Positions 8,199 through 45,921 of a DNA stretch of 64,000 bases are shown piece by piece. Numbering within the stretch: position 1 is the stretch's first letter; each line of letters starts with the position of its first letter. Position numbers and translations under genes: made by a program. The stretch is from Pelomonas sp. Root1217 (GTDB taxonomy: Bacteria > Pseudomonadota > Gammaproteobacteria > Burkholderiales > Burkholderiaceae_C), in NCBI RefSeq assembly GCF_001425705.1, contig NZ_LMDC01000001.1:1348486-1412485 (forward strand), read 5' to 3'. The notes under the pieces were generated by a model. It had not been told where the DNA came from, did not search any database, and was given only the letters and a program-made list of their open reading frames with translations.

Positions 8199-8418
8199 AG
8201 CCCCTCGTCCAGTCTCGCCGCGCTGAACGCGGGCAAGCCCGGTCGGTCTTGCAGACCGCGCTGCGGCTTGAGCCGCAGCCCTTCGGCAGGCACATGCCGC
8301 CCACTGGGCGCCATGTGTCCGGCCTCAGCCCCCAAGGGGACGGCCATGCTTGGCGGATCGACCGCCAAGCACATCGCCCCAGGCGGGCCGGCTTGGGAGC
8401 GGCCCTGCGCTCGGCCCG
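8199..8418 (+). repeat. Dispersed structured repeat, copy 1 (with 80-bp insert)
   Basis: First of five copies of a 137-bp repeat. Conserved blocks in order are AGCCCCTCGTCCAGTCTCGCC, GCTGAACGC, GGTCGGTC, CCCCAAGGGGAC, a hairpin with stem GCTTGGCGG / CCGCCAAGC, ACATCGCC, and GGGCCGGCTTGGGAGCGGCCC. It starts eight bases after the cdsA-like stop and ends 17 bases before ruvC. Between GGTCGGTC and the CCCC/GGGG hairpin it carries an insert (about 8249-8328) absent from the other copies, with perfect arms CTGCGGCT / AGCCGCAG and a second palindrome with arms beginning CACATG and ending CATGTG. Confidence 0.9.
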
Positions 8419-8435
8419 CAGAACCGCTATCTAAC

Positions 8436-8984
8436 ATGAGAATTCTCGGCATTGACCCCGGCCTGCAGACCACCGGTTTTGGTGTCATCGAAGCCGACGG
8501 CCCGCGCCTGGCCTATGTGGCCAGCGGCACCATCAAGACCAACGCCGTCGCCACCGGCGACCTGCCGGCGCGGCTGAAGATCCTGTTCGATGGCATCCGC
8601 GAGGTCACGGCGCGCTACCAGCCACAGTGCGCAGCGGTGGAGATTGTCTTCGTCAACGTGAACCCGCAGTCCACGCTGCTGCTCGGCCAGGCGCGCGGCG
8701 CGGCCATCACCGCGCTGGTGTCGGCTGACCTGCTCGTCAGCGAGTACACGGCCCTGCAGATGAAAAAGGCCATCGTCGGCCACGGCCACGCCAAGAAGGA
8801 GCAGATCCAGGCCATGGTGCAGCGCTTGCTCAGCCTGCCGGGCCTGCCTGGCAAGGACGCCGCCGATGCGCTGGGCATTGCCATCATGCATGCGCATGCG
8901 CGCGTCAGCTTCGAAGCGATGAGCCGCAGCACGACGCTGGAGCGGCGCCAGCATGCGCAGTTCAAGGGCGGGCGGACGTACTAA
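8436..8984 (+). CDS. ruvC: Crossover junction endodeoxyribonuclease RuvC
   Basis: Resolves Holliday junctions in recombination and repair together with the RuvAB branch-migration motor, cutting as a dimer. The 182-residue protein has the four catalytic acidic residues of the RNase H-like fold: Asp7 (GIDPG), Glu69 (AVEIVF), Asp141 and Asp144 (KDAADALG). ATG 8436 (MRILGIDPG) is the obvious start; longer frames run through the upstream repeat. In many Burkholderiales ruvC directly follows purH and is followed by ruvA; here seven genes separate it from purH and ruvA is not next to it. A perfect hairpin follows the stop. Confidence 0.97.
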
Positions 8985-8989
8985 GAAGA

Positions 8990-9011
8990 ACGGCCCGCCT
9001 AAGCGGGCCGT
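8990..9011. terminator. Hairpin between convergent ruvC and PEP-CTERM gene
   Basis: Perfect nine-base arms (ACGGCCCGC / GCGGGCCGT, 8990-8998 and 9003-9011) with a CTAA loop, five bases after the ruvC stop and 21 bases from the end of the opposite gene. On the minus strand it is followed by TTCTT, giving a better terminator for the PEP-CTERM gene; on the plus strand there is no T run. Confidence 0.7.
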
Positions 9012-9031
9012 CGAAGCGACGCGGGTCGCGC

Positions 9032-9511
9032 TCAGATCAGCTTGCGGCGACGAGCGAGGAAGCCGACGACACCGAGGCCGCCCAGCATCAGGGCATAGCT
9101 TTCGGGTTCCGGTACTGCGCTGATGCTCAGCGTGCCACCTTGATCGATGCCGTTGATCGCATAGTTGAAATTGCTTGCACCGAAGTTCGAGAACAGATCT
9201 ACGGCGCCACCACCTTGGGTCGCGAAGCGGCCATTGGGGCCTGTCAGCGTGCCACCTTCGAACTTCACATAGGGGTCGGTGGCCTGTGCCAGCGTGTAGG
9301 TCTGGCCCTGAAAGCTGAAGCTCAGCGAGGTCAGGCCGAAGTCGCCGTCGAAGCCGCCAGCCGACACCACGGCGTCGTCGAAAGAGAAGCTGCCGTTCAG
9401 CACCGTGGCTGTGGGGGCGGTGTCGAAGCTGCCGGTGAAGTTGTACGTGGCGGCCTGAGCGGCGCCGGCCAGAGTCAGGGCCGCCAGGGCCAGGATAGAT
9501 TTGCGATTCAT
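9032..9511 (-). CDS. PEP-CTERM sorting domain protein
   Basis: A 159-residue secreted protein. A signal peptide (cleavage probably after AGAAQA, near residue 20) is followed by a beta-rich, Gly/Ser/Thr-rich body without a recognised domain. The C-terminus has the classic sorting signal: VPEP motif, a hydrophobic helix (about 141-153) and the basic end RRRKL. Such proteins are cut and anchored by an exosortase (EpsH family) and often join extracellular polymer or floc formation. It starts 11 bases after the large nuclease stop with an AGGA ribosome site, so both probably share one transcript and are exported together. Confidence 0.9.
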   Translation of the reverse strand: MNRKSILALAALTLAGAAQAATYNFTGSFDTAPTATVLNGSFSFDDAVVSAGGFDGDFGLTSLSFSFQGQTYTLAQATDPYVKFEGGTLTGPNGRFATQGGGAVDLFSNFGASNFNYAINGIDQGGTLSISAVPEPESYALMLGGLGVVGFLARRRKLI

Positions 9512-9522
9512 TTTGTATTTCC

Positions 9523-12500
9523 TCAGAACTTGAAGCTGGTGGCCGTGACTGCTGCGCAGGCAATGCCCTTGAGCTGCAGCAGCGGCTTGGACTTGATGGG
9601 GCCGGCAGCGCCGTCAGCGTCGATGCCGATGATTGCGCCGGTGGCATTGGCCGTGCAGGTCACATGGCCGCTGGCGAGCGGGTCTGCGCTGGCAATGCCA
9701 TTCGCAGTCAGCAGCTTGGTCAATACCAGCGTATCCACACCGGGCTTGAAGTCAGTGATGACGTCGCCGGCGTCCCCCATGCTGCGATAGACGAACTGGT
9801 TGCGGCCGCCATTGCCAGTCAGCGTATCGGCGCCCGGGCCACCTTCGATGATGTCGTCGCCTGCCGTGCCGACGATGTTGTCGCGGCCGTCGGTACCGGT
9901 GAAGCCCTTGGTCAGGTCCAGCCCGATCAACATCGGGTCATGGTCGGAGGCGCGGAACTGGTTGGGCTGGTACCAGTCATTGCCGGCGGCCTTGTCCTCG
10001 GTGTTGTAGTCGATCCATTCCGGCTCATCGGCGTTGATGTGCCAGCTGGTCGCGCCCGTCACCTTGGCGGCGATGGCCGCGGTGCCCAGGCCGTGGTCGA
10101 GGCGGCCGGCGCTGGCGTCGAAGACATAGCTGTAGTCGGCCGGGTCGAACATGCTGACCAGGTCGACGATGCCGTTGCTGGTCAGCAGGTCGATCGGGTC
10201 TTCCTTCGCATAGGAATTGAAGTCGCCGAGCATGATGACGCGGTCGGTGCCGGCCGTGGCTGTGACGGTGGGCAGCCAGTCCAGCAGGCGCTGGGCCTGC
10301 TGCTTGCGCTGCAGGTTCCAGCAGCCCTGCAGGTCGCCGGTGTCGCCGTTCAGGCCGGTGCCGCAGCTACCCTTGGACTTGAGGTGGTTGACGACGACGG
10401 CGAACTTCTCGCCGTTGGGGGCCACGAAGCCCTGCGCGTAGGTGGGCCGGTTGTTGATGGCGTTGTCGTCGGACATCGACGCACCCATCAGGCCGAGCTT
10501 GGCCGGCTTGTAGATCATGGCGACGCGGATGGCGTCGGTGCCCGTGGAGGGCGGCAGCGGCACGGCGGCATAGGTGTTGACGCCCATCATGGCGTTGAGG
10601 CCGTCGACGAGGTTCTGCACGGCGAAGTTGCCGCTGTTCTGGATCTCCATCAGGCCGACGACGTCGGCGTTCAGGCCCGACAGGGCGGCCAGGATCTTGG
10701 TGCGCTGGCGATCGAATTCCGCCTGGTTGTCCGCGCCGCGGCAGCCGGCGCTCGGGCAGGCGCCGCCGCCCGGCACGGCGCTGCCGTTGGTGAACGTCGT
10801 GAAGAAGTTCAGCACATTGGAGCTGGCCACGCGGACATTGCCGCCCACGGCAGGCGGCGCCAGCGGGCGCGCGATCGGGCGGGCGAACACCGGCGCGGCG
10901 GTCGGGTGGATCTTGTAGGCCAGCGGGCCGGTGGCCGAATCGGTCGAGGGGCCGAAGTCGACGACGCCGGTCACGCCTTCGACCGTGTCGCCGGCGCGCA
11001 CCGTGCCGTCTTGCCAGAGGTAGGGCGTGGGGTTGGGGAACTTGGTGGCGCTGCTGTCATCCAGCACGACGCTGCGAGCCAGGTTGGCAGCCTGCATGGC
11101 GAGCGCCGCCGGGCCGGGGCGCAGCACATTGGTTGGGTTGAGCGTGCGGCCGCCGGCCGACACGGTCAGCTGGCCCCAGCTGCCGACGAAGTTGGTCTGG
11201 TTGACGGTCAGCGGGTCGGTGATGTGGACCAGCATGCCCTCATAGCGCTCCATGTCCGACTGGCTGGCCAGGGATGCCAGGCTGACCTCGACCGGCAGGG
11301 GCAGCGGGTTGCCGGTGCTGACGACGGTGACATTGGTGACGCTGCTCAGCTCGGTCAGCGGGTTGGCCAGGCTGGCGGCGCTGCTCGAGACCGAGTACTC
11401 CTGCACCTTGGCCGACACGTTGACCTTGTCGCCGACGGCCACGGTGGGCGCCGTGCTGGTGAAGACGAAGATGCCGTCGGAGGTGGTGGCATCACCGTCG
11501 CCGTCCGGGTCCTGCAGGTAGAAGCCGTTGTTGATCAGCTTGGTGACGACGCCGCCGGTCGTGACGGTCGTGCCGTCCATGCCGCTCTTGGCCCCCGAGC
11601 CCTGGATGGCGGGAATCGTGACGACGCCGCTGACCGACAGCTTGAACGTGCAGCTGGCCGTCTGCGCCTCGTCGTTGTCCCATTTCAGGCCGAGGTTGTA
11701 ATTGCCGGCCGCGAGGGTGTTGTCGACGTTGATCTGCTGGGTCGCGGCCACGCCGTCGGCACTGGCGCCGACGAAGCTGCCCAGGGTCACGCCGGCGGGC
11801 AGGGCGCCGACGACGCTGGCCGCGTTGACGCGGCTGTCGCTGTCGGTGGCACTGACCACGAAGCTCGAGGCCGTGCCGGATACGACGGCCTGGTCAGGGC
11901 AGCTGGGGATGATGGGCTGGTTGACGTTGCCGCCACCGCACAGATTCACCGGACTGCTGGTGTTGCGCGGTGTGGGTGCGCCGGTGGCAAAGTCGGCGGC
12001 GTTGTTGTTGCTGTCCGTGCAGCCGCTGGCCGCGCGCAGGTTGGCCGTCGTGTTGGTCAGGACCGGGGCCGGGGCCGCGCCCTCCGCGCCGGTGCCGGTG
12101 GGGCCCCAGGAGATCAGGTCCTCAGCGCCGGCTGGCGCGGCGCCGCTCAGGGCCGCGGTGCTCTTCACCAGGGCGACCTTGCCTGTCGTGCCCGACAGCG
12201 CCAGGGTGCCGGTGAGATCCCCCACCACGTCAGTGGTGCCACCGGTGCCCGCGGCTTCACGGACGAGGTAGTACTGGCCCGGCTGCAGCGTCACACCGGC
12301 CGGAATGGCCGTCGCCTGCCAGCTCGTGCCGGTGGCCGACGCGTACTGCACCGACCAGCCGCCGATGGCGACAGGCGCCGCGCCGGCGTTGAACAGCTCG
12401 ATGAAGTCCTGCTTGTAGACCGCGCCGCTGTTGCCGCCACCGCCATAGACCTGGCTGATGACGACGCCGCTGGTCGAGGCCAGCACGGCGGGCGCGGCGA

Positions 12501-12540: not shown

Positions 12541-12645
12541 GACTATTTAGTAAAAATTGCCCAAAACGGGGCGCATCGTAGGGATGCTTCATGACGTTTT
12601 GGTCCACCGCATTCGAGGGGGTGTCCTCAGGCATCATCCCGGCCC

Positions 12646-14058: not shown

Positions 14059-14068
14059 TACTGCGCTA

Positions 14069-14431: not shown

Positions 14432-16206
14432 CTTTGCTCGTTTCTTCGCCACCTTTCGGCCTCGCCCGCATGCTTGGCGCCTTCGTGCGCGGCCACTGGC
14501 GCGCCTACGCGACCGCCGGCGCGATGCTCAGCTGCATCGCGGCCCTAACGGTCTGGATTCCTCGCCAGGTCGGCCATGTCGTCGATGCTCTCGTCGCCGG
14601 CGGCCTCAAGGGCGATGCGTTGCTGCAGCAACTCGGCCTGCTGGTGTTGGCCGGCCTCGTCATCTACCTGCTGCGCGCCGGCTGGCGGCTGACCCTCTTC
14701 AAAGCGTCCTTCCAGCTTGGTGCACGACTGCGCACGCGGCTCTACGCGCGTCTTGCGCTGCAAGGCCCCGCCTACTTCCAGTCCCAGCGCACCGGTGACC
14801 TGATGGCGCTGGCGACAAACGACATCGACACCGTCGAGCAGGCCGCCGGCGAAGCCATGCTGGCCGGCTTTGACGGCACGCAGACGCTCGTCCTCGTGCT
14901 GGCGATGATGACCATCGGCATCGACTGGCGCCTCGGCCTGGCGGCCCTGGTGCCGTTCCCGCTGATGGCCCTGGCGTTCTGGTGGATATCCAACCACCTG
15001 CACCAGGCTGCGCAGGACTCGCTGGGCGCCTTCAGCGGCCTGAACCAGCAGGTGCAGGAAAGCCTCTCGGGCGTGCGCACGGTGCGTGCCCTGGGCCTGG
15101 TCGCCCGCAGCGAGGCGCAGTTCACCGAGCTGGCCGAGAAGGCGGCCGAGGCGAGCTTTCGCTCGCAGCGCTGGGAGGCCGCCTACGAGCCGGCCGTCGG
15201 CATGACGCTGTCCGCCGCGTTCGCCATCGCGCTGGCCGTGGGCGGCTGGTTGGTCTCGCGCGGCGAGCTCAGCATCGGCCAGCTGACGGCCTTCACGATG
15301 TACCTCGGCCAGCTGATCTGGCCAATGTTCGCGGCGGGTTGGGTACTGGCATTGCTGGAGCGCGGGCGCGCGGCCTGGATGCGCCTGGCCCCCGTGCTGG
15401 ACGCGCCGCTGACACTGACCGACGAGGGCAGGGCGGCGCTGCCGGCCCACGCCGAACTGCGCGCTGACGGGCTCACCTTCAGCTTCCCCGGCGCCAAACG
15501 GCCGGCGTTGGAAGGCGTGGGCCTGGCACTCGCACCGGGCAAGACGCTGGGCATCGTCGGCGCGACCGGTGCGGGCAAATCCACTTTCGTGCGCTTGCTG
15601 CTGCGTCAGTCCGAGCCGGACGCGGGCCGGCTGACGCTGGGTGGTGTCGCATTGCCAGAACTGCCGCTCGCTACGCTGCGCGCCCACATCGCCTGGGTGC
15701 CGCAGGAGCCGTTTTTGTTCTCGGCCTCGGTGGCTGACAACATCGCGCTGGCCAAGCCCGGCGCAACGCGCGAAGAGATCGAGGCTGCAGCACGCCTGGC
15801 TTCGGTGCACGACGACGTCGCTCGGCTCCCCGAAGGCTATGCGACCGAGGTCGGTGAGCGCGGCGTGACGCTGTCGGGTGGCCAGCGCCAGCGCGTCGCC
15901 ATCGCACGGGCTCTGTTGAGTGACGCGCCGCTGCTGGTGCTGGACGATGCGCTTTCCGCCGTCGACACCGGCACCGAGACCGACATCCTCGACCACCTGC
16001 GCGAGCTGCGTGCCGCGCGGCCTGATCGCAGCGTCATCGTCATTGCGCATCGACTCTCGGCCGTGATGGATGCCGACGAAGTCATCGTGCTCAAGCAGGG
16101 CCATGTCATCGAGCGCGGCACGCACCAGCAGCTGCTCGAACTGAGTGGCTGGTACGCGGCGCAATGGCGCTATCAACAGATCGAGGCCAGTCTTGAAGCC
16201 GCCTGA
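14428..16206 (+). CDS. Heterodimeric ABC exporter subunit 1 (non-canonical ATP site)
   Basis: A 592-residue half-transporter: six membrane helices (residues about 20-315) and a C-terminal ATPase. Walker A is GATGAGKST (378-386), signature LSGGQ (482-486), Walker B LLVLDD with Asp507 where an active subunit has Glu. That change is known from degenerate sites of heterodimeric exporters such as TM287/288, and the next ABC gene has the matching pattern, so the two most likely form one drug or lipid exporter. GTG 14428 overlaps the previous stop by four bases; ATG 14470 is an alternative start. A structured repeat separates it from its partner. Confidence 0.9.
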   Translation: MTLLVSSPPFGLARMLGAFVRGHWRAYATAGAMLSCIAALTVWIPRQVGHVVDALVAGGLKGDALLQQLGLLVLAGLVIYLLRAGWRLTLFKASFQLGARLRTRLYARLALQGPAYFQSQRTGDLMALATNDIDTVEQAAGEAMLAGFDGTQTLVLVLAMMTIGIDWRLGLAALVPFPLMALAFWWISNHLHQAAQDSLGAFSGLNQQVQESLSGVRTVRALGLVARSEAQFTELAEKAAEASFRSQRWEAAYEPAVGMTLSAAFAIALAVGGWLVSRGELSIGQLTAFTMYLGQLIWPMFAAGWVLALLERGRAAWMRLAPVLDAPLTLTDEGRAALPAHAELRADGLTFSFPGAKRPALEGVGLALAPGKTLGIVGATGAGKSTFVRLLLRQSEPDAGRLTLGGVALPELPLATLRAHIAWVPQEPFLFSASVADNIALAKPGATREEIEAAARLASVHDDVARLPEGYATEVGERGVTLSGGQRQRVAIARALLSDAPLLVLDDALSAVDTGTETDILDHLRELRAARPDRSVIVIAHRLSAVMDADEVIVLKQGHVIERGTHQQLLELSGWYAAQWRYQQIEASLEAA

Positions 16207-16211
16207 AATGG

Positions 16212-16349
16212 AGCCCCTCGCCCAATCTTGCCTGGCTGAACGCAGGCGAGCCTGGTCGATCCCCCGAGGGGATGGCGATGCTCGCGTCATCGAGCCGCGA
16301 GCACATCGCCGGTGCGGGCCGGCTTGGGAGCGGCCCTGCGCTCGGCCCG
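16212..16349 (+). repeat. Dispersed structured repeat, copy 2
   Basis: 138-bp copy, beginning five bases after the stop of ABC subunit 1 and ending 28 bases before the start of subunit 2. Its first hairpin arms are CTTGCC / GGCGAG, the second is ATCCCC / GGGGAT (the other copies have GTCCCC / GGGGAC, a compensated change), the third is GCTCGCG / CGCGAGC inside GGCGAT / ATCGCC, and the last is GGGCCG / CGGCCC. It sits inside what should be a two-gene operon. Confidence 0.9.
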
Positions 16350-16377
16350 AAATGCAATGCGCGGTGGAGCGCCCTAG

Positions 16378-18147
16378 ATGAAGAAAGAGACACCTTGGAA
16401 GAGCGTCGGTTTGCTGCTGGACTCTGCACGGCCCGAGCGCAGCCACCTGATCAGCGGCGGCATCTGGCTCGTCCTTGCCGCCGGCCTCGAAGTGCTCGGC
16501 CCCATCCTCGGCAAGCGCTACATCGACCACCACCTGCTGCCGCGCCAGTTCGTCGTCGCCGAAATGGCCACGCTGCTGGCGCTGATGCTGCTGACCGGCT
16601 GGGCCGCGAGCTGGATCCGCTACGCCCAGCTGTCGCGCATGGCCGGCGTGGCGCGGCGCTCGGTGCTGCGGCTGCGCGAGCGGGTCTACGCGCATGTGCT
16701 GGCCCTGCCGATGGCCTTCTTCGACAAGGCCATCACCGGCCAGCTCGTCAGCCGCGTCACCAACGACACCGAGGCGGTGAACCAGCTCTACCGCCAGGTG
16801 CTGTACGTGATGCTGGACTCGACCATCGTCGTCTTCGGCTCGCTGGTGGCGATGGCCTTTCTCGACTGGCGGCTGATGCTCATCGTCGCGACGCTGGTGC
16901 CGGCCATGGTGGTCATCATCCTGGGCTACCAGAAGCTGTCGGCGCCGGCAGTGGCGCGCACCCGCCAGCTGCGCAGCGACATCAACGCGCAGATGGCCGA
17001 GAGCATGGCTGGCATGGCCGTGCTGCAGGCTAGCGGCGCGGCCGGGCGCTTCGGCGCCCGCTTCGAGACGACCAATGCCGAGCACCGGCTGTCGCGCATC
17101 GCCGAGCTGCGCGCCAACGCCTGGCTGCTGCGCCCGGCCCTGGACCTGATGAATGTGCTGCTGCTGGTCACGGTCATCTACAGCTTCGGTCGGCGAGAGA
17201 TGTCGGGGCTGGAGGTCGGCCTGCTTTACGCCTTTCTGAGCTACATCGCCCGGGTGGTGGAGCCGCTGATCCAGATCACCATGCAGTTCGGCCAGCTGCA
17301 GCAGGCCATGGTGGCGGCGTCGCGCGTGCGCACGCTGCTGGAGGAGGATGAGCACCGCGGCCCGGCCCAGGACGGCCGCGGGATTGCCCAGGGCAGCATC
17401 CGCATCGAGGGGCTGAGCTTCGGCTACGACCCTGCAAGGCCGGTGCTGCATGGCGTCGACGTGGACATCGCGGCGGGCAGCTTTGTCGGCATCGTCGGCC
17501 ACACCGGCAGCGGCAAGAGCACGCTGCTATCGCTGCTGCTGCGCTTCTACACAGCGCAGGCCGGGCGCATCACGGTGGACGGCCAGCCGCTGGCCAGCGT
17601 GCCGGACGCGGCCTTTCGCGACGCGGTGGGGCTGGTGCCGCAGGAGCCTTATCTGATGTCGGCGAGCGTGCGCGACAACATCGCGATGGGCCGGCCGGGC
17701 ATCAGCGAGGACGACATCCAGGACGCGGCCACGGCGGCGCGCGCGCATGACTTCATCACGGCGCTGCCGCAAGGCTATGACACGCTGCTCGGCGAGGGCG
17801 GGGCTCGCGTGTCCACCGGGCAGAAGCAGTTGCTGGCGATGGCGCGGGCATTGGCAGGCTCACCGCGCATCCTGTTCCTAGATGAGGCGACCAGCAATAT
17901 CGACAGCGCCACCGAGCAGCGCGTGGGTGAGGCGCTGACGGCGCTGCGCGGGCGCGTGACGGTGGTGGCCATCGCGCACCGGCTGTCGACCATCCGCGCG
18001 GCCGACCAGATCCTCGTGCTCAACCACGGACACCTGCAGGAGCGTGGTTCGCACGAGGCGCTGATGGCGATCGAAGGCGGCTTGTACCGCCGCCTGGTCG
18101 AACTGCAGACACTGGAAGAGCCCGACGCCGAAGCCGAGCCTGTCTGA
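16378..18147 (+). CDS. Heterodimeric ABC exporter subunit 2 (catalytic ATP site)
   Basis: A 589-residue half-transporter with six membrane helices followed by an ATPase domain. Walker A is GHTGSGKST (374-382) and Walker B ILFLDE ends in the catalytic Glu503. The signature motif is non-canonical, VSTGQ (478-482) instead of LSGGQ. In a heterodimer this degenerate signature would face the Asp-type Walker B of subunit 1, while the intact halves pair in the active site. It resembles MdlB/YheH-type proteins. Start ATG 16378. It is separated from subunit 1 by a 138-bp hairpin repeat, so its expression may depend on read-through or its own promoter. Confidence 0.9.
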   Translation: MKKETPWKSVGLLLDSARPERSHLISGGIWLVLAAGLEVLGPILGKRYIDHHLLPRQFVVAEMATLLALMLLTGWAASWIRYAQLSRMAGVARRSVLRLRERVYAHVLALPMAFFDKAITGQLVSRVTNDTEAVNQLYRQVLYVMLDSTIVVFGSLVAMAFLDWRLMLIVATLVPAMVVIILGYQKLSAPAVARTRQLRSDINAQMAESMAGMAVLQASGAAGRFGARFETTNAEHRLSRIAELRANAWLLRPALDLMNVLLLVTVIYSFGRREMSGLEVGLLYAFLSYIARVVEPLIQITMQFGQLQQAMVAASRVRTLLEEDEHRGPAQDGRGIAQGSIRIEGLSFGYDPARPVLHGVDVDIAAGSFVGIVGHTGSGKSTLLSLLLRFYTAQAGRITVDGQPLASVPDAAFRDAVGLVPQEPYLMSASVRDNIAMGRPGISEDDIQDAATAARAHDFITALPQGYDTLLGEGGARVSTGQKQLLAMARALAGSPRILFLDEATSNIDSATEQRVGEALTALRGRVTVVAIAHRLSTIRAADQILVLNHGHLQERGSHEALMAIEGGLYRRLVELQTLEEPDAEAEPV

Positions 18148-31119: not shown

Positions 31120-31257
31120 CGGGCCGAGCGCTGGGCCGCTCCCTAGCCGGCCCGCGCTGGCGATGTGCTTGCGGCTCGATGCCGCAAGCATCGCCGTCCC
31201 CGCGGGGGACCGACCAGGTTCGCCTGCGTTCAGCAGGGCGAGACTGGGCGAGGGGCT
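31120..31257 (-). repeat. Dispersed structured repeat, copy 3
   Basis: 138-bp copy in minus orientation. Read on the minus strand it begins immediately after the stop codon of the gene at 31258-31740 (no gap) and runs toward the DUF1203 gene, ending 123 bases before its start. The central hairpin has stem GCTTGCGG / CCGCAAGC, where copies 2 and 4 have C-G at the position that is T-A here, so the stem is kept by paired changes. The GTCCCC / GGGGAC and GGGCCG / CGGCCC hairpins are also intact. Confidence 0.9.
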
Positions 31258-31740
31258 TCAGTCCCGGCCTGCGGGACGCTCATAGCCGTTGTCCACCCAG
31301 GCTTCGGCGGACGCCTGGCTGAGCTTGAAGCCGGCGGCGACCTTGACCTGCGCCAAGCGCTCGCCGGCAGCATCGAAGGCCGCCAGCCAGGCGTAGGGGT
31401 CGTCCTCGGCAGGCACGATCTCCAGCGTGATCTTCAGCCAGGCGCCGTCGCGAGCGACATACAACGCCTTGTTCAGCTGCGCATGCAACTGCTGCTCATG
31501 GCGGCGGAGGACCTCGGAGGCCGTCTTCACCAGCGTGTTGAAGGCGTTGACGTCCAGGGGCTTGGGATTCTTCTTGTCGCGCCCCATGGTCCAGGGGCCG
31601 ACCAGGGCCGGCTCGCTTTCGCCGGCCTTGAACATCGCGACGGCCCAGCCTTCATCGTCCTCGTTCTTGATGACCTGGGCGGTCCAGCCGTTGTCACGCC
31701 ACAGCCGGGCTTCGAAGACGGGTTCGTCAACTTCACTCAT
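31258..31740 (-). CDS. Conserved hypothetical protein
   Basis: A 160-residue acidic soluble protein without signal peptide or membrane segment. It contains WAVAMFKAGESEPALVGPWTMGRDKKNPKPLD-type sequence, here described as a WAVAMFK block followed by a GPWTMGRDKKNPKPLD block, and a C-terminal AWVDNGYERP. I do not recognise a family with known function. Its ATG overlaps the stop of the upstream gene (31737-31740, ATGA), so the two form an operon. Repeat copy 3 abuts its stop codon. Confidence 0.7.
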   Translation of the reverse strand: MSEVDEPVFEARLWRDNGWTAQVIKNEDDEGWAVAMFKAGESEPALVGPWTMGRDKKNPKPLDVNAFNTLVKTASEVLRRHEQQLHAQLNKALYVARDGAWLKITLEIVPAEDDPYAWLAAFDAAGERLAQVKVAAGFKLSQASAEAWVDNGYERPAGRD

Positions 31741-32672: not shown

Positions 32673-33239
32673 TTACCCATGCAGGCGCGAGCTGCGCGGC
32701 ACGCTGGCGAGCAGGAACTCCATCTGGTCGGCCAGGATGCGGCGGCCGCGCAGGATCATGTCCTCGTGCAGGCTGGGCACATAGGGCAGGTAGAGCAGGC
32801 TCATGTGCGCCTCCTCCGGCATGCGGTTGCCCTTGCGGCCATTGCAGGGCCGGCAAGCGGTGATGCAGTTCATCCAGGTGTCGTAGCCGCCGCGCGACGT
32901 CGGGTGAATGTGCTCGCGTGTCAGGTCTTCGGGCAGGCAGTGGTGGCCGCAGTAGGCGCAGACGAAGCGGTCGCGCACGAAGAGCTTGCTGTTGGTCAGC
33001 GCCGGCGCCTGGCGCCAGGCCCGGCTGGGCACGGCCCCGCGCACGGCAATGATGGGGTGGACCTCGATGCGCGACTGGCGCCCGGAGATGCGCTGCCAGC
33101 CCCCGCGCAGCACCTGGCAGGGGTCGCCCAGCGTCCAGGCAACGCCGTCGCAGGCGTAGATCACGGCCGCTTCGCGGGTCGTGATCCAGGCCTGGGGGCG
33201 GCCGGAGACATCGAGTTGGAGCACATCCACAGAAGTCAA
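32673..33239 (-). CDS. HNH endonuclease domain protein
   Basis: A 188-residue protein with a C-terminal HNH nuclease fold: zinc cysteines CAYCGHHC (near residue 93) and CRPCNGRKGNR (near 130), and the catalytic region LTREHIHPTSRGG with HxH. The N-terminal 85 residues form a beta-rich part seen in housekeeping HNH proteins of proteobacteria (RPQAWITTREAAVIY block). It stands alone, not beside a methylase or phage genes, so a repair or processing nuclease is more likely than restriction. It could also be a homing-type relic. Repeat copy 4 lies upstream. Confidence 0.85.
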   Translation of the reverse strand: MTSVDVLQLDVSGRPQAWITTREAAVIYACDGVAWTLGDPCQVLRGGWQRISGRQSRIEVHPIIAVRGAVPSRAWRQAPALTNSKLFVRDRFVCAYCGHHCLPEDLTREHIHPTSRGGYDTWMNCITACRPCNGRKGNRMPEEAHMSLLYLPYVPSLHEDMILRGRRILADQMEFLLASVPRSSRLHG

Positions 33240-33325: not shown

Positions 33326-33461
33326 CGGGCCGAGCGCCGGGCCGCCCCTAGCCGGCCCGTCGGGCGATGTGCTCGCGGCTCGACGCCGCGAGCATCGCCG
33401 TCCCCGTTGGGGACCGACCAGGCACGCTCGCGTTCAGCGGCGCGGGACTGGGCGAGGGGCT
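33326..33461 (-). repeat. Dispersed structured repeat, copy 4
   Basis: 136-bp copy in minus orientation. The central stem is GCTCGCGG / CCGCGAGC with loop CGTCGAG, enclosed by GGCGAT / ATCGCC; the CCCC hairpin is GTCCCC-AAC-GGGGAC; the last is GGGCCG / CGGCCC. Unlike the other four copies it does not follow a stop codon: it lies upstream of the HNH gene, between divergent promoters. Confidence 0.9.
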
Positions 33462-33602: not shown

Positions 33603-34325
33603 GTGTCCACGCTGCCCACTCCCGCCAAGAAGACCGCCCCGCTGCGCGTTGCGAAGCCGGCGCGCGTTGCGCGTTCGCTGCAAAAAGGCCAGCAGACCCG
33701 TGCTGCCATCCTCGAGGCGGCTCTCGGCCTGGCTTCGCACATGGGCCTGGAAGGCTTGTCCATTGGCGCGCTGGCCGACGTCACCGGCATGAGCAAGTCG
33801 GGCGTCTTTGCCCACTTCGGCTCGCGCGAGGAACTGCAAATCGCAGTCGTCACCGAGTATCACGCCAAGTTCGAGGAAGAAGTCTTCTTCACCGCCATCC
33901 GTGAACCGCGTGGCCTGCCGCGGCTGCGCGCGATGTTCGAGCGCTGGGTGCGGCGCGTGTCCGTCGAGGTCGACTCCGGCTGCATCTACATCAGCGGCGC
34001 CGTCGAATTCGACGACCGGCCCGGCCCGGTGCGTGATGCTCTCGTGGCCATGGTCAAGGCCTGGCATGCGGCGCTGCAAAAGGCCATCCAGCTCGCCATC
34101 AGCGAGGGCCATCTGAAAGCCGATGCCGATGTCGAGCAGATCTGTTTCGAGCTGCATGGCCTGATCCTGTCCCTGCATCACGACGCGCGCTTCATGCGCA
34201 TTCCCGGCGCGCTCGCGCGTGCCGGCATCGGTTTCGACCGAACCATCCTTTTCTACGCCACGCCGCTTGGCCTCGACATCGACGGCAGCCGCAAGCTTCC
34301 AAAGACCGGCGCCGCCAAGCGCTGA
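33603..34325 (+). CDS. TetR/AcrR-family transcriptional regulator of the beta-oxidation cluster
   Basis: A 240-residue repressor. The helix-turn-helix is at about 54-73 (SIGALADVTGMSKSGVFAHF), preceded by a basic, disordered N-terminus (MSTLPTPAKKTAPLR). The C-terminal ligand domain has the TetR_C form common in fatty-acid regulators (VDSGCIYISGAVEFDDRPGPVRD). Start is GTG 33603. It precedes the acyl-CoA dehydrogenase gene by 40 bases on the same strand, and the palindrome at 33557 suggests autoregulation. A plausible ligand is an acyl-CoA, in the manner of PsrA or FadR-type TetR proteins, which is inference. Confidence 0.88.
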   Translation: MSTLPTPAKKTAPLRVAKPARVARSLQKGQQTRAAILEAALGLASHMGLEGLSIGALADVTGMSKSGVFAHFGSREELQIAVVTEYHAKFEEEVFFTAIREPRGLPRLRAMFERWVRRVSVEVDSGCIYISGAVEFDDRPGPVRDALVAMVKAWHAALQKAIQLAISEGHLKADADVEQICFELHGLILSLHHDARFMRIPGALARAGIGFDRTILFYATPLGLDIDGSRKLPKTGAAKR

Positions 34326-36611: not shown

Positions 36612-36617
36612 AGCAGC

Positions 36618-39912: not shown

Positions 39913-39921
39913 TGACATCGC

Positions 39922-39958
39922 GGGACAGACCGAAGCGCACAGCGCGTAGCTCTGTCCC
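39922..39958. other. Inverted repeat after the fadB-like gene
   Basis: Eight-base arms GGGACAGA (39922-39929) and TCTGTCCC (39951-39958) enclose 21 bases with further GCGC pairing. It sits ten bases after the fadB-like stop and has no T run, so it might act as an attenuator or mRNA 3'-end stabiliser between fadB-like and the thioesterase gene. Confidence 0.4.
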
Positions 39959-39977
39959 CGACTGACCAAGACTCGAA

Positions 39978-40469: not shown

Positions 40470-40480
40470 AAGGAACAAAC

Positions 40481-41695
40481 ATGAGCAAGCAAGTCCAAGA
40501 CGCCTACATCGTCTCCGCCACCCGTCTGCCGATCGGCAAGAGCGGCCGTGGTTTCTACAAGAACACCCGCCCCGACGAGATGCTCGTCAAGGTCATGCAG
40601 GCCGTGCTGGCACAGGCCCCGGGCCTGGACCCGGCCGCCATTGAAGACGCCATCGTCGGCTGCTCCTTCCCCGAAGGCGAGCAAGGCATGAACATCGCCC
40701 GCGTCGCCTCGGTGCTGGCGGGCTTGGGCCCGACCATCGGTGGCGTGACGATCAACCGCTACTGCGCCTCCGGCATCACCGCCGTGCAGATGGCCGCCGA
40801 CCGCATCCGCGTTGGCGAGGCCGACGTGATGTTCGCCGGCGGCGTCGAATCGATGTCCATGATCCCCATGGGTGGCAACAAACCCAGCTTGAGCCCGCTG
40901 ATCTTCGAGAAGGACGAGAACATCGGCATCGCCTACGGCATGGGCCTGACGGCCGAGAAGGTTGCCGCGCAGTGGAAGATCAGCCGCGAAGCCCAGGACG
41001 AGTTCTCGGTGGAATCGCACCGCCGTGCGGTGGTTGCCATGGCTGCCGGCCACTTCGACGCCGAGATGACGCCTTTCGATGTCGTTGAGCGCACGCCCAA
41101 CCTCGCCGACGGCAGCATCAACACCAAGACCCGCACCGTCAAGCTCGACGAAGGCGCCCGCCCCGACACGTCGCTGGAAGGCCTGGCCAAACTCAAGCCC
41201 GTGTTCGCCGCCAAGGGCAGCGTCACCGCCGGCAACAGCTCGCAGACTTCCGACGGCTCGGGCGGCCTGCTGATCGTCAGCGAAGCGGCCCTGAAGCGCT
41301 TCAACCTGACGCCGCTGGCCCGCTTCGTCTCCTTCGCCGTGCGCGGCGTGCCGCCGGAAATCATGGGCATCGGTCCCATCGCCGCCATCCCCGTGGCGCT
41401 CAAGGCGGCCGGCATCACCGCCGCCGACCTGGACTGGATCGAACTGAACGAGGCCTTCGCGGCGCAGTCGCTGGCCGTGCTGAACGACCTCGACAGCAAG
41501 GGCATCGTGCTCGACCGCAGCAAGGTCAACCCGAACGGCGGCGCGATCGCGCTGGGTCACCCGCTGGGCGCTACCGGCGCCATTCGCGCGGCCTCGGTCA
41601 TCCATGGCCTGCGCCGCACCGGCGGCAAGTACGGCATGGTGACAATGTGCGTCGGCGCTGGCCAAGGCGCTGCTGGCATTTTCGAAAGGCTGTAA
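40481..41695 (+). CDS. Acetyl-CoA C-acyltransferase (thiolase, FadA-like)
   Basis: Last step of beta-oxidation: thiolytic cleavage of 3-ketoacyl-CoA to acetyl-CoA and shortened acyl-CoA. The 404-residue protein has nucleophile Cys95 (NRYCASG), the NEAFAAQ block, His in GGAIALGHPLGATG and the C-terminal Cys in TMCVGAGQG. Start ATG 40481 (MSKQVQD) follows a GAAAGGA ribosome site; the frame extends 15 bases upstream without reason. With the fadB-like gene it makes a complete beta-oxidation cycle in the cluster. Confidence 0.94.
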   Translation: MSKQVQDAYIVSATRLPIGKSGRGFYKNTRPDEMLVKVMQAVLAQAPGLDPAAIEDAIVGCSFPEGEQGMNIARVASVLAGLGPTIGGVTINRYCASGITAVQMAADRIRVGEADVMFAGGVESMSMIPMGGNKPSLSPLIFEKDENIGIAYGMGLTAEKVAAQWKISREAQDEFSVESHRRAVVAMAAGHFDAEMTPFDVVERTPNLADGSINTKTRTVKLDEGARPDTSLEGLAKLKPVFAAKGSVTAGNSSQTSDGSGGLLIVSEAALKRFNLTPLARFVSFAVRGVPPEIMGIGPIAAIPVALKAAGITAADLDWIELNEAFAAQSLAVLNDLDSKGIVLDRSKVNPNGGAIALGHPLGATGAIRAASVIHGLRRTGGKYGMVTMCVGAGQGAAGIFERL

Positions 41696-41698
41696 ACC

Positions 41699-42232
41699 AT
41701 GGATCGTCGCCGCGCGCTCAAGACCGCCACGGTATTGCTCGCGGCGACCCCGCTGGCGGCCTGCACGGGCAAGTTGAAGACCTTTGCAACGTGGAAGGAC
41801 GGTCAGCAGGCCGTGCTCGATCTGCTGTTCGCGCCCAAGGTCGTGCAGGACAACCCCTGGAACCTCAGCCAGGTCATGCAGCACTTGGCCCAGAGCATCG
41901 AGTTCTCGATGCAGGGCTTCCCGGCGCTCAAGGGCGCCTGGTTCCGCTCCTCCATCGGCTCGGCGGCCTTCGCCGTCTTCAACGCGCGCGGCACCATGAG
42001 CCACAGTCTGGACGAGCCCATCCCCGGCGCACCGGCACTGGATGCGTCGCAGGCGCTGAAGACTTCGGTGCAGCGCCTGCTGGATGCCATGGACGCCTTC
42101 GCGCAGTTCAACGGCACACTGCGGCCTCATTTCGCCTACGGTGAGCTGACCAAGCCGCAGTACGAGCGAGCCCATCTGATGCACCTGGCGAATCACTGGA
42201 CGCAGTTCCACGCCAAGACAGCCACCGCTTAA
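41699..42232 (+). CDS. DUF1569 (DinB-like) lipoprotein/exported protein
   Basis: A 177-residue protein with a basic, twin-arginine-like start (MDRRRALK) and hydrophobic stretch ending LAACTG, which could be a lipobox with Cys21. The rest resembles DUF1569 proteins of the DinB-like four-helix fold (NPWNLSQVMQHLAQSIEFSM, HLANHWTQF, with His residues that could bind metal). No activity is known. It begins three bases after the thiolase stop and so is probably co-transcribed. An 80-bp palindrome follows ten bases after its stop. Confidence 0.72.
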   Translation: MDRRRALKTATVLLAATPLAACTGKLKTFATWKDGQQAVLDLLFAPKVVQDNPWNLSQVMQHLAQSIEFSMQGFPALKGAWFRSSIGSAAFAVFNARGTMSHSLDEPIPGAPALDASQALKTSVQRLLDAMDAFAQFNGTLRPHFAYGELTKPQYERAHLMHLANHWTQFHAKTATA

Positions 42233-42242
42233 CGATTTTCCA

Positions 42243-42322
42243 ATGCAACCACAGAGGCACAGAGACACGGAGCAACTCCTCAGGAGCTTCTTCTCTGTGC
42301 CTCCGTGCCTCTGTGGTTGCAT
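42243..42322. repeat. 80-bp near-perfect palindrome
   Basis: Two 30-base arms (42243-42272 and 42293-42322), beginning ATGCAACCACAGAGGCAC on each strand, match at 27 of 30 positions. The 20-base centre itself contains CTCCT-C-AGGAG. Together it would form one long hairpin in RNA or a cruciform. The CCACAGAGGCACAGAG wording resembles a palindromic repeat I recall from many unrelated proteobacterial genomes, so it is probably a mobile or dispersed element. It ends 27 bases before the crotonase start codon and no T run follows. Confidence 0.85.
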
Positions 42323-42349
42323 CTGTATTTCCAAATCTGGAGACAACCG

Positions 42350-43114
42350 ATGACCATCAAGAGCTACACCGTCAACGGCGTCGCGACCATCGAGATCGCC
42401 CGCCCCGAGAAGAAGAACGCCATCACCCAGGCCATGTACCAGGCCATGGCCGACGCCTTGCGTGCGGCCGATGCCGACCCGGCCGTGCGCGCCATGCTGA
42501 TCACCGGCCAGCCGGGCATCTTCACGTCGGGCAACGACCTGGAAGACTTCATGGCCGGCCCGACGCGCGGCGAAGACGCGCCAACCTTCCAATTCATGCA
42601 CGCGCTGGTGGACAGCACCAAGCCGGTCATCGCTGCCGTGACCGGCGCGGCCATCGGCATCGGCACCACCATGCTGCTGCACTGCGACTTCGTCTTTGTC
42701 GCCGATGACGCCCGCCTGGCCATGCCCTTCGTGGCCCTGGGCCTGGTGCCCGAATTCGCCTCCAGCGTCGTGCTGCCCCAGCTGATCGGCAACCGCCGCG
42801 CGGCCGAAAAGCTGCTGCTGGGCGACCCCTTCACAGGGGAGCAGGCCGTCGAATGCGGCATCGCCAACCGCGTGCTGCCGGGCAGCGAGGTGCTGAACCA
42901 CGCCCGCCGCATCGCCGAGCGCTTCAACACGCTGGCGCCGGGCGCCGTGCGCGACAGCAAGAAGCTGATCCGCGATGCGCAGCGCGACGCCGTCAAGGCG
43001 GCCATCACGCGTGAAGCCGAGATCTTCGGCGCGCGTCTGCGCAGCCCGGAGGCGATGGAGGCCTTCCAGGCCTTCTTCCAGAAACGCCTGCCGGACTTTT
43101 CCAAATTCTCCTGA
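42350..43114 (+). CDS. Enoyl-CoA hydratase/isomerase (crotonase family)
   Basis: A 254-residue crotonase-fold enzyme that probably hydrates or isomerises enoyl-CoA. The CoA and oxyanion blocks are IARPEKKNAITQAMYQAM, FTSGNDLEDF and VTGAAIGIGTTMLLHCD; an acidic residue follows in GLVPEFASS, in the place of one catalytic Glu, while the other Glu is not obvious, which could mean isomerase rather than hydratase activity. Start ATG 42350 with a GGAGACA ribosome site. The stop is CTGA-overlapped by the reading frame of the next gene. Confidence 0.88.
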   Translation: MTIKSYTVNGVATIEIARPEKKNAITQAMYQAMADALRAADADPAVRAMLITGQPGIFTSGNDLEDFMAGPTRGEDAPTFQFMHALVDSTKPVIAAVTGAAIGIGTTMLLHCDFVFVADDARLAMPFVALGLVPEFASSVVLPQLIGNRRAAEKLLLGDPFTGEQAVECGIANRVLPGSEVLNHARRIAERFNTLAPGAVRDSKKLIRDAQRDAVKAAITREAEIFGARLRSPEAMEAFQAFFQKRLPDFSKFS

Positions 43115-43164
43115 CCCTTTCGAAGGTCGCGCTCGGCCCGCTGCTGATTTGGCAGGGGCGGCGA

Positions 43165-43839
43165 GTGCGTGCCACAGCGCTGCGCCTGCCCGAGGCGGCC
43201 GGGCCGCGCTCGGGTGAGGGTTCAGCGCTGAGATTGCTGATCGTCGGTGACTCGTCCGCGGCGGGCGTTGGCGCATCCCACCAAGATGAAGCACTGGCCG
43301 GCCGGCTCGCGCAGGCCCTGGCAACGCGGCTCGGGCAACCCGTGGGTTGGCAACTGATCGCGACGAGCGGCCATCGCAGCGAGCAGGCGCTCGCAGCTTT
43401 TGAAGCGGCAGAAGTGGCACCGGCCGATGTGCTGATCACCTCCCTGGGCGTCAACGACGTTGTTGACCAGATCGCACCTGCGCAGGCCCTGGCGGCGTTG
43501 GACCGCATCCACGCCCTCGCGACCGAGCGCGCGGGCGTGCGCCTGAGCGTGCACTGCGCCGCACCGCCCATGCAGCAGTTCCCGCTGCTGCCCCAGCCGC
43601 TGCGTTGGTTCTTCGGCCGCCAGGCGGCGTGCTTCAACGCGGCCTTGAGTTCGGCTGTCGAAGGTCAGGCATCACGCCATGTGCTGCATCTGCCCGAGGC
43701 CATGCAACGCAATGCCGTCGAGCTGATGGCCGAAGACGGCTTCCACCCCGGCCCGCGCGGCTATGCGCTGTGGGCCGAGGCGCTGGCCGATCAGGTTGTG
43801 GCGTCGTTACCTCGGCTATCGATCTACTCACCAAGTTGA
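43165..43839 (+). CDS. SGNH/GDSL-type esterase/lipase
   Basis: A 224-residue hydrolase (counted from GTG 43165) of the SGNH family: Ser30 in VGDSSAAG, Gly/Asn in SGHRS and GVND, and the Asp-His pair in DGFHPG. It would cut esters or thioesters and lacks a signal peptide. The true start may be further upstream: the frame continues to 43111 with sequence that reads like a typical N-terminus of such proteins (KVALGPLLIWQGRRVR), starting at a CTG overlapping the crotonase stop. The usual start codons ATG and TTG are absent there. Confidence 0.82.
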   Translation: MRATALRLPEAAGPRSGEGSALRLLIVGDSSAAGVGASHQDEALAGRLAQALATRLGQPVGWQLIATSGHRSEQALAAFEAAEVAPADVLITSLGVNDVVDQIAPAQALAALDRIHALATERAGVRLSVHCAAPPMQQFPLLPQPLRWFFGRQAACFNAALSSAVEGQASRHVLHLPEAMQRNAVELMAEDGFHPGPRGYALWAEALADQVVASLPRLSIYSPS

Positions 43840-43841
43840 GC

Positions 43842-43883
43842 GTTGCGGCCGCTCGGCCGTTCCTAGACTGCCCCGGCCGCAAC
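43842..43883. other. Inverted repeat between SGNH hydrolase and rhamnogalacturonate lyase genes
   Basis: Perfect nine-base arms GTTGCGGCC (43842-43850) and GGCCGCAAC (43875-43883) enclose 24 bases. It is three bases after the hydrolase stop and 58 bases before the lyase start. It could be a terminator without T run or a protein-binding operator for the lyase; the sequence does not decide. Confidence 0.4.
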
Positions 43884-43941
43884 CACGCGGCAGCACCGGC
43901 CGCGCAAACCTGCAGACGGCGGGCTCAATAGGAGACAAAAC

Positions 43942-45780
43942 ATGCGGATCGAATTCCTCCGCCGGTGCTTGCGCCGGCTGAGCGCGGCAGCGTGCCTGCT
44001 TTTGGCGATGGTCACGGCAACGCCGGCGTTGGCGGCCTTGAGCCTCACCACCCTCTACGACGGCGGTAGCGCCGCCAAGCTGCAGTACCAGGTAGACACC
44101 GGCGGCGGCCTGGTATTCAAGGTCATGGCCTACGACAACGGCGTCAGCACCCAGTCCAAGGGCGACCTTTCCAGCCTGCTTTACAACGGCGTGCAATACG
44201 CGGATGCCAGCCGCGGCTCGCAGCTGAACTCCGGCTTCGACTTCCTCTACAGCAACGTTTCGGCGGTCGATGTGCAGGCCCAGATGATCAGCAGCAGCGG
44301 TGCAGCCACGTCGGCCTCCACCGCCAACGGCGGCGTGGTCAGCGGCGGCGCCTACGTCAAGATCACGGTGACCGTCTTAAGCGCCAACGGCGGCGTGCTC
44401 AAGCACTACTACATGGCCAGGAGCGGCGAGCCGCGCATCTACATGGGCACCTATTTCACCGAGGAGCCCGACACGCTGAATCTGGTGCGCTTCATCCTGC
44501 GCGTACCCATCGCGGCGCTCTCCAGGGGCGGCCCCGCGGGCCTGCCCGGCGGTCTGGCCAGCAATGGCAGCTGGCCGCAGGACCTGCGCGGCACCGACAC
44601 GACGGTCGAGGCGAGCGACGTGTTCGGCTTCTCCAGCGGCACCGCCAGCGCGGGGCAGACGCGCTCCAAGCACTACTCCAACATGCGGCTGAAGGACTGG
44701 CAGTATTTCGGCGGCCTCAACAGCACCAGCAGTGTCGGGCTGTGGTTCTACCGGGACAACAACGAAGGCAATTCCGGCGGGCCCTTCTACCGCAGCCTGC
44801 TCAACCAGATCACCGCCACCAACAACGAGCTGACCTACATCGTCAATTACGGCGAGGGCCAGACCGAGGCCTTCCGCATGGGGGTGTTGAACAGCTACAC
44901 GCTGATGTTCACCGCCGGCGGTGCGCCGTCGGCGCCGGACACGAGCTGGTTCTCGGTGATGGCGCTGGACGGTTATGTGGCGCCGTCCGGCCGCGGCACG
45001 GTGGCCGGTGTCGGCCTGTCGGGCACCGATCCGAACTACAGCTACACGGTGGGCTTCTCCAGCAGCACGGCGCAGTACTGGGCCAGCGCCAACCTCGCCA
45101 ACAACGGCTTCTTCAAGAGCACCGGCATGCGGCCTGGCGCCTACACGCTGACGGTCTACAAGAACGAGCTCGCCGTCTACACCGGCAGCGTGACCGTCAC
45201 GGCCGGTGGCACGACGACCTTGAACACGCTGGCGATCAATGCCGACCCGTCAGCCAAGGCGGCGTTGTGGCGCATCGGCAACTGGGACGGCACGCCAGCC
45301 GAGTTCCTGAACGGTGGCCGGCTCACGACCATGCATCCGACGGACGTGCGCATGAGCAATTGGGTGCCGGCCACCTTCGTGGTTGGCACGTCGAGTGCGG
45401 CCAGCGGTTTCCCGGCCTACCAGTGGAAGGACGTCAACAACGCCCGCGTCATCCAGTTCACGCTGACCAGCGCCCAGGTGCAGAACCTGACGCTGCGCAT
45501 CGGCACGACGGCCGACTTCAACGGCGCCCGGCCGCAGATCACAGTCAACAACAACAGCTGGACGTCCGCCATCCCGACCGCGCCGCCCAAGGGCTCGCGC
45601 AACCTGACGGTGGGCACCTATCGCGGCGTGAACCGGCTGTACAGCTTCGACATCCCGTCGACCGCGCTGGTGGCCGGCACTAACACGGTGACCGTCAATG
45701 TCGTCAGCGGTACCTCGGGCACGGCCTACCTGAGCCCGGCACTGTCTTACGACGCGGTCGACCTCATCGTGACGCCGTGA
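43942..45780 (+). CDS. Secreted rhamnogalacturonate lyase, polysaccharide lyase family 4-like
   Basis: A 612-residue exported enzyme expected to cleave the rhamnose-galacturonate backbone of pectin (rhamnogalacturonan I) by beta-elimination. Signal peptide about 1-31 (TPALA). Then a large N-terminal beta-domain (about 32-345), a small beta-sandwich near 350-430 (GTVAGVGLSGTDPNYSYTV, then GAYTLTVYKNELAVYTGS), and a carbohydrate-binding-like domain from 438 with the PL4 hallmark ALWRIGNWDGTPAEFLNGG and HPTDVRMSNW. A TAGGAGAC ribosome site precedes ATG. It is alone, without transporters or other pectin enzymes beside it. Repeat copy 5 begins four bases after its stop. Confidence 0.87.
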   Translation: MRIEFLRRCLRRLSAAACLLLAMVTATPALAALSLTTLYDGGSAAKLQYQVDTGGGLVFKVMAYDNGVSTQSKGDLSSLLYNGVQYADASRGSQLNSGFDFLYSNVSAVDVQAQMISSSGAATSASTANGGVVSGGAYVKITVTVLSANGGVLKHYYMARSGEPRIYMGTYFTEEPDTLNLVRFILRVPIAALSRGGPAGLPGGLASNGSWPQDLRGTDTTVEASDVFGFSSGTASAGQTRSKHYSNMRLKDWQYFGGLNSTSSVGLWFYRDNNEGNSGGPFYRSLLNQITATNNELTYIVNYGEGQTEAFRMGVLNSYTLMFTAGGAPSAPDTSWFSVMALDGYVAPSGRGTVAGVGLSGTDPNYSYTVGFSSSTAQYWASANLANNGFFKSTGMRPGAYTLTVYKNELAVYTGSVTVTAGGTTTLNTLAINADPSAKAALWRIGNWDGTPAEFLNGGRLTTMHPTDVRMSNWVPATFVVGTSSAASGFPAYQWKDVNNARVIQFTLTSAQVQNLTLRIGTTADFNGARPQITVNNNSWTSAIPTAPPKGSRNLTVGTYRGVNRLYSFDIPSTALVAGTNTVTVNVVSGTSGTAYLSPALSYDAVDLIVTP

Positions 45781-45784
45781 ACTG

Positions 45785-45921
45785 AGCCCCTCGTCCGGCC
45801 TCGCCTCGCTGAACGCGGGCGAGCCCAGCCGGTCCCCCAAGGGGACGGCGATGCTCGCCGGGTCGACCGGCAAGCACATCGCCAGTCGGGCCGGCTTGGG
45901 AGCGGCCCGGCGCTCGGCCCG
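45785..45921 (+). repeat. Dispersed structured repeat, copy 5
   Basis: 137-bp copy, four bases after the lyase stop, in sense orientation. First hairpin CTCGCC / GGCGAG, second GTCCCC-CAA-GGGGAC, third GCTCGCCGG / CCGGCAAGC (one C-A mismatch), last GGGCCG / CGGCCC. It ends 25 bases from the stop of the convergent thioesterase gene, so here it separates two converging transcripts. Confidence 0.9.

Follow-up and report, generated by a model that had tools for sequence, protein, structure and literature searches.

A modular family of hairpin-bearing repeats at gene ends in Pelomonas sp. Root1217 and its relatives, probably a non-autonomous mobile element

A stretch of 64 kb from Pelomonas sp. 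Root1217 (contig NZ_LMDC01000001.1, positions 1,348,486 to 1,412,485; hereafter the window, numbered from its first nucleotide) carries five copies of a dispersed, hairpin-bearing repeat, and profile and covariance-model matches put them where an earlier note on this DNA had placed them. Copy 1 (8201-8418, plus strand) lies between a gene of the cytidylyltransferase family (7210-8190) and ruvC (8436-8984), and is split into two covariance-model matches (8201-8299 and 8311-8418) by an interruption of some 84 nt, an insert between hairpins A and B at about 8244-8327 on the plus strand (module I). Copy 2 (16214-16349, plus strand) separates two co-directional ABC transporter genes (14470-16206 and 16378-18147), copy 3 (31120-31255, minus strand) is found directly 3' of the stop codon of the minus-strand gene 31258-31740, and copy 5 (45787-45921, plus strand) directly 3' of a gene of the rhamnogalacturonan lyase family (44008-45780) that is convergent with 45947-46348. 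Copy 4 (33326-33459, minus strand) is located between the divergent genes 32673-33230 (minus strand, HNH family) and 33603-34325 (plus strand, TetR family); it is an exception to the placement rule described below and the sole window copy that is also present in the closest relative (G007, syntenic and with a ruvC product of 100% amino-acid identity). Copy 2 is 86, 85 and 82% identical to copies 3, 4 and 5, respectively, in line with the 80% or more claimed before. The four whole copies scored E-values of 4e-49 to 6e-43 with a nhmmer profile built from those same four copies; the profile also recovered all 36 of 36 flanked loci from elsewhere in the genome, so that the repeat is not a chance resemblance. 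The genome belongs to the Roseateles/Pelomonas group; its closest named ruvC, in a comparison that may leave out the window's own record, is that of Pelomonas sp. Root1444 at 98% identity.

The element was found to be abundant and placed with unusual strictness. A covariance model of 39 copies gave at least 130 matches at E<=0.001 in the genome itself, a lower bound with 150 candidates scored and some elements yielding two matches, so the earlier estimate of hundreds per genome was of the right order. For the detailed study 102 merged elements were used, with genes called by a codon-usage caller trained on the same genome. None of the 102 lies inside a called gene, and 94 follow the 3' end of a gene in sense orientation (67 in co-directional and 27 in convergent gaps); the other eight lie between divergent genes (5) or are antisense (3). 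The distance from the stop codon to the start of the match is at most 12 nt in 75 of the 94 sense elements, 13-27 nt in 15 (most of them short 5' types, in which the profile misses the first ~18 nt) and 67-128 nt in four; at L020 and L160 the upstream reading frame extends 27 nt into the element. The same placement behind a gene, in sense, was found for 45 of 49 elements in other species of the genus (one copy being inside a called gene) and for 23 of 23 in other genera, using the codon model of the Root1217 genome and with tandem arrays merged.

Another feature was turnover between relatives. We compared by eye the 34 copies with an orthologous site in G007, i.e. 29 of 30 queried loci (there was none for L023) and the five window copies. 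In G007 the element was absent from 18 of these sites, reduced to a short remnant at two, shared at 12 (one of them visible only at its 5' end) and replaced at two by an element on the opposite strand behind the other gene. The 18 absences include the ruvC site, which holds another insert in G007, and the site of copy 5, which holds a different hairpin sequence of 33 nt; the site of copy 3 is empty there. The junction between the ABC transporter genes (copy 2) is filled in Root1217, G009, L047/G006 and L058 and empty in G007, G008, G002 and G014, and at the junction upstream of ruvC none of the relatives compared has the element.

Some junctions bear what may be marks of insertion. Among 18 filled/empty pairs, four (L035, window copy 3, L027 and L030) show apparent duplications of 14, 13, 9 and 9 nt, respectively, each with a stop codon within it. 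Of 77 genes lying downstream of an element, 16 carry the sequence CTGANATG at the start codon, as do 2 of 174 co-directional controls (p 2e-7 for the difference) and none of 125 other genes. Likewise, a TGANATG-type sequence occurs at the upstream stop in 15 of 90 cases against 6 of 296 controls, the 5' flank has the consensus ATGRAG ahead of the CCCC of the element, and 38 of 87 flanks have ATG[AG] in their final 12 nt, compared with 54 of 270 control stops (the flank tables skip 15 of the 102 elements, whose ends were not found by pattern). These enrichments and the flank consensus suggest indirectly that insertion often duplicates stop/start junctions. Such a duplication keeps both neighbouring genes whole, which would make low-cost accumulation in operons possible.

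The repeat is also modular. We found two types of 5' hairpin, a long one with the loop GCTGAACGC and a short one (CCAAGG-AGTA-CCTTGG), and further modules such as the insert I between hairpins A and B, differing stems of hairpin C and an alternative or enlarged hairpin D. At L014, L029 (second copy), L034 and L044 the orthologous copies of Root1217 and G007 are nearly identical save for whole modules, the copy in G007 having in addition J at L014, I at the second copy of L029, I at L034 and both I and J at L044. Module content is in this way variable between homologous copies, as it is in BOX elements, and gene conversion between dispersed copies would be the simplest cause.

The consensus of 39 aligned copies is 136 nt long, and RNAalifold predicted four hairpins (A to D) with 40 pairs, 12 of them with at least one double change, in agreement with the four hairpins per copy seen before. 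In copy 2 these correspond, all on the plus strand, to 16219-16258 (A, approximate limits, with the loop region GCTGAACGC), 16259-16273 (B, ATCCCC/GGGGAT), 16274-16310 (C, GGCGAT..ATCGCC) and 16315-16349 (D, GGGCCG..CGGCCC, almost invariant). The compensated stem changes quoted earlier are indeed present, i.e. that of hairpin B in copy 2, GCTTGCGG/CCGCAAGC in copy 3 and GCTTGGCGG/CCGCCAAGC in copy 1, and copy 2 additionally has one uncompensated change (GCGTC vs GCCGC). Covariation was evaluated with a home-made, R-scape-like test, in which the null preserves both the tree and how many changes each column has undergone, on MAFFT alignments that were not fitted to the structure. With 121 full-length copies the column pairs 74-84, 76-82 and 71-87 in hairpin C and 17-36 in hairpin A were above all 40 simulations, and so were the non-canonical pair 9-44 (C/T to T/C) and the cross-pairs 76-84 and 74-82, the latter two because of a linked stem flip in hairpin C. 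Two pairs of hairpin C were above all simulations with 185 copies of hairpins B to D, and just two pairs reached E 0.08 in the 39-copy alignment, one of them non-canonical. Hairpin D is so nearly invariant that most of its pairs allow no covariation test. Outside the genus, the stem of hairpin C can be replaced outright with the loop largely kept, for instance at L187-L189, where the element forms tandem arrays.

The earlier claim that the structure is under selection was borne out in part: the covariation exceeds the phylogenetic null in the 121 copies, but selection on each copy at its own site was not established. We compared stem changes in eight of the 12 copies shared with G007, the remaining ones differing by modules or being seen only in part. 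Five little-diverged pairs show six one-sided and no two-sided changes, and three strongly diverged pairs, which look replaced or converted, six one-sided and eight two-sided changes. The one-sided changes in the little-diverged pairs, small as the numbers are, suggest that fixed copies decay and that structured variants spread by insertion or conversion. The covariation is genuine, and the structure is best read as maintained through the spread of the family more than at individual sites.

We also considered folding of the antisense strand. In hairpin C, A.C mismatches (G.T wobble pairs in the complementary strand) number 42 against 4 G.T in 185 sequences; a separate count covered the 132 of 174 matches in which hairpin C was found by pattern (116 unique). 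Unpaired columns carry the same bias (G>A 32 vs C>T 10), so that mutation bias may account for most of the A.C excess, and antisense folding was rejected as its explanation, the difference from hairpin C not being significant (p 0.08). A remaining hint is the flip of columns 9-44, with C/T in 79 and T/C in 35 of the 121 copies, corresponding to G.A and A.G when read on the opposite strand; a shorter form of the element, described below, also shows G-C and A-T at this place. Folding energy favours the antisense strand in 81% of 95 copies, which are not independent of each other.

The comparison establishes, at the level of sequence, position and orientation, presence and absence among relatives, duplications of some stop regions and the exchange of hairpin modules at fixed sites, all of which goes beyond the earlier note. 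The repeat is probably a modular mobile element, hairpin-bearing and non-autonomous, which inserts at stop codons or just 3' of them. Most insertions would be at stop/start junctions within operons, the 5' end of the element (ATGRAG-CCCCTCG) pointing toward the stop. It would be moved by an enzyme that acts in trans on its folded strand, insertions at other places would be purged, and the covarying stems would serve spreading more than a host function at each site. Several observations speak against this reading. Mobility is deduced from comparison and was not observed; 13 of the 18 filled/empty pairs lack a clean duplication and one has a duplication of 2 nt only; and a general test for duplicated flanks was weak (z 1.3 to 2.5), on which ground a target duplication of fixed length was rejected. 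Eight of the 102 copies, window copy 4 included, break the placement rule, and the shorter form mostly has the opposite orientation. No terminal inverted repeats, which together with target-site duplications characterise MITEs, were noticed, the ends CCCCTCG.. and ..GGCCCG not being inverted repeats of each other in the 39 aligned copies (judged by eye, with the exact 3' end uncertain). Finally, no element lies within 1.5 kb of either of the two Y1_Tnp genes of the genome, and no enzyme could be tied to the family.

These two Y1_Tnp genes are a lead for the mobilising enzyme. One is above the NCBIfam cut-off for RAYT; the one in the window (51316-52161) scores 58.7 bits, under the cut-off of 80, and is about 37% identical to the second RAYT of the genome. 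Five relatives have a homolog of this RAYT-like gene in synteny, and in G016 the homolog is followed by an element. Among 200 genomes of the family, a Y1_Tnp match was found in 20 of the 20 genomes with strong element matches and in 127 of the 180 others, and two or more matches in 13 of 20 and 20 of 180, respectively (hand counts, uncorrected for shared ancestry). No Y1_Tnp match was found in G074, which carries the shorter form, nor, it seems, in G210 and G214, which carry it as well. A vertically inherited RAYT is in our view an unproven candidate, to be taken as a lead only.

Several other explanations have to be weighed against mobility. Hairpins behind genes could be host-beneficial RNA that protects or processes the 3' end of the messenger or adjusts the relative amounts of two cistrons. 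Such a role has been proposed for ERIC in Yersinia, an element described as affecting upstream transcripts in an orientation-dependent manner (PMC2229807). The sense orientation and the covarying stems fit such a role, as does the fact that, where a terminator can be made out, the element lies between it and the stop codon: at L028, L044, L127 and L177 (judged by eye) terminator-like hairpins with a T-run lie downstream of the element. The element is for that reason expected to be transcribed, presumably together with its neighbours as a 3' or intercistronic segment, and not to be a terminator itself. A host-beneficial role is nevertheless unlikely given the high turnover at the same genes, the one-sided stem changes in little-diverged orthologs and the opposite orientation of the shorter form. 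The separate T-run hairpins, together with the missing T-run after hairpin D in the copies inspected by eye and the 67 of 102 elements between co-directional genes, make a family of transcription terminators the least credible of the explanations considered, even if the hairpins are GC-rich, lie 3' of stop codons and are found between convergent genes in 27 of 102 cases.

It could also be argued that the repeat is a translated spacer, with an open frame that begins at the upstream stop, ends at the next start and keeps translational coupling. In 37 of the 67 co-directional cases, against 12 of 52 control gaps of 61-400 nt (p 7e-4), a frame indeed runs open from the stop of the upstream gene as far as a stop that overlaps the start of the next one. 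On the other side, copies differ in length by one or two nt, and the duplicated stop/start junction and the high GC content account for much of the open frame. The entropy is flat over the codon positions (0.33, 0.36 and 0.38 for positions 1-3 in 39 copies), and a conserved small protein was rejected because third positions are not more variable. We give the spacer explanation little credence as an alternative, while it is compatible with a mobile element. Spread as a retroelement by target-primed reverse transcription would fit the uneven length of the duplications where these are seen, but is very improbable in a genome that has no match to RVT_1 (PF00078), the same search being positive in 3 of 14 control genomes.

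With the mobile element as the preferred reading, we looked at its range and at its likeness to known repeats. Copies were found throughout the genome and in 20 of 20 genomes of the genus (19 to 148 covariance-model matches per genome, Root1217 included). With stricter filters and at most 16 candidates scored per genome, 51 of the 200 genomes of the family matched at E<=0.001, 20 of which were counted as strong (E<=1e-11), and with these stricter filters none of 250 evenly drawn genomes of the order except Root1217 itself passed E<=1e-8. The earlier remark that no named family has this sequence agrees with Rfam 15, none of whose families scores above its gathering cut-off in the window (copy 2 reached E 4.6 at best under permissive filters), and no description of the repeat was recognised among the open-licence papers found by full-text search. 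A plasmid or phage origin was rejected, as plasmid and phage collections gave no match to the element and the exact hairpin-D pattern was not found in viral contigs.

The closest kinds are, on our best reading, YPAL and BOX. YPAL/RU-2 of Yersinia is described as a recently mobile element of about 168 bp that lacks TA ends, contains an open frame of 56 codons and duplicates 3-26 bp of its target (PMC2229807). The repeat resembles it in size (136 bp core), stable hairpins, uneven target duplications, a contiguous open frame and filled and empty sites between relatives, and differs from YPAL as described there by its near-fixed placement in one orientation behind stops and by module exchange; the likeness is drawn from that description. 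BOX elements of Streptococcus pneumoniae are, according to their description, modular, judged parasitic and present in ~125 copies in one genome, vary in length by module gain and loss and in some cases supply stop codons or open frames (PMC3049150). High copy number, modularity and gain and loss of modules are found here as well, whereas BOX as described has terminal inverted repeats and repeated boxB units, and the present element alternative hairpins at fixed places.

Other families are less alike. REPs are described as sequences of 20-40 bp with a GTAG or CGTC tag, of which the GTAG-tagged ones can flank RAYT genes (PMC3733652). The present repeat shares with REP, BIME and REPIN the high-copy intergenic hairpins, the RAYT genes in the same genome and tandem arrays in some species, but is 136 nt long with four hairpins, lacks GTAG, has CGTC only in some copies and within a stem, and is not found near the Y1_Tnp genes of its own genome, though one copy follows the RAYT homolog in G016. 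ERIC has, as described, terminal inverted repeats and TA ends (PMC2229807). Neither was seen in this element, which is like ERIC/IRU, as far as these are described, in being structured, intergenic and ~130 bp long. A further comparison is with integrons. Their attC sites lie directly behind stop codons in fixed orientation, fold as a single strand and end in RYYYAAC and GTTRRRY. The post-stop placement in fixed orientation is shared, but the consensus ends of the repeat lack these motifs and the elements are dispersed and not arranged as a cassette array. The repeat is best classed with the small, structured, non-autonomous mobile elements, as a new family that is placed at gene junctions with unusual strictness.

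A homologous form of 78 bp was found in six genera whose matches to the model are weak; it has the order CCCCTCG, hairpin A with a GTAC-type loop, hairpin B and hairpin D, and without hairpin C. Of 24 such loci that were read, 18 are antisense between co-directional genes, two are divergent, two sense and two inside called genes, and at least six belong to tandem arrays. At ten loci exactly 5 nt separate the CCCC end from the start codon called for the gene on the opposite strand. The antisense end CGAGGGG would there occupy the position of a ribosome-binding site. Many loci have CATG beside CCCC and TCATG after hairpin D (by eye), which suggests a duplicated junction in the short form too. 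A search of 80 named ruvC loci found the long form only, in loci of the Roseateles group. Tentatively, and with doubt as to the whole, one could combine these observations into a superfamily of operon-compatible mobile hairpin elements that would target the stop/start (ATGA-like) junction and, by duplicating it, leave both genes and in many cases a through-open frame intact. A vertically inherited, domesticated RAYT would move them in trans, and they would evolve by in-place module swaps, one genus group having them in sense behind stops and another having a shorter form antisense before starts, with the CGAGGGG end perhaps as ribosome-binding site.

In the dense genomes of bacteria, spare intergenic space is usually regarded as the place where repeats persist. 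The present family appears to live inside operons, landing on the few nucleotides at which neither gene suffers from an insertion and its short duplication. Its more than 100 copies differ in many cases between close relatives, and it offers a natural system for the spread of structured repeats through tightly packed operons, and it could be used to test whether a domesticated transposase drives repeats and whether repeats alter the messenger ratios of operons. It also means that co-directional gene pairs of this group may hold a long structured spacer, liable to be called as a small protein.

Some further repeats were seen at the junctions that were compared. Upstream of ruvC in G007 (L227), G009/L045 and L055 there is a different insert (TTTAGCTTCGGCCCGTCGCTG...), with an apparent duplication of ~45-50 nt over the first ruvC codons, which makes a second family of repeats at junctions of this kind. 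At the locus corresponding to G007 41096, a palindromic repeat (CCACAGAGGCACAGAG...CTCTGTGCCTCTGTGG) is present 3' of the stop codon in G002, G014 and Root1217, in the place of the hairpin element of other relatives. At the G007 1094 locus (L235), G002 has a long run of short tandem repeats (CCGAGCAG and CCGAACAG units) after the element, which was not seen in the other genomes compared at that junction. In the window itself, a small protein is encoded at 9032-9511, whose C-terminal motif (VPEPESYALMLGGLGVVGFLARRRK) is possibly of the PEP-CTERM type.

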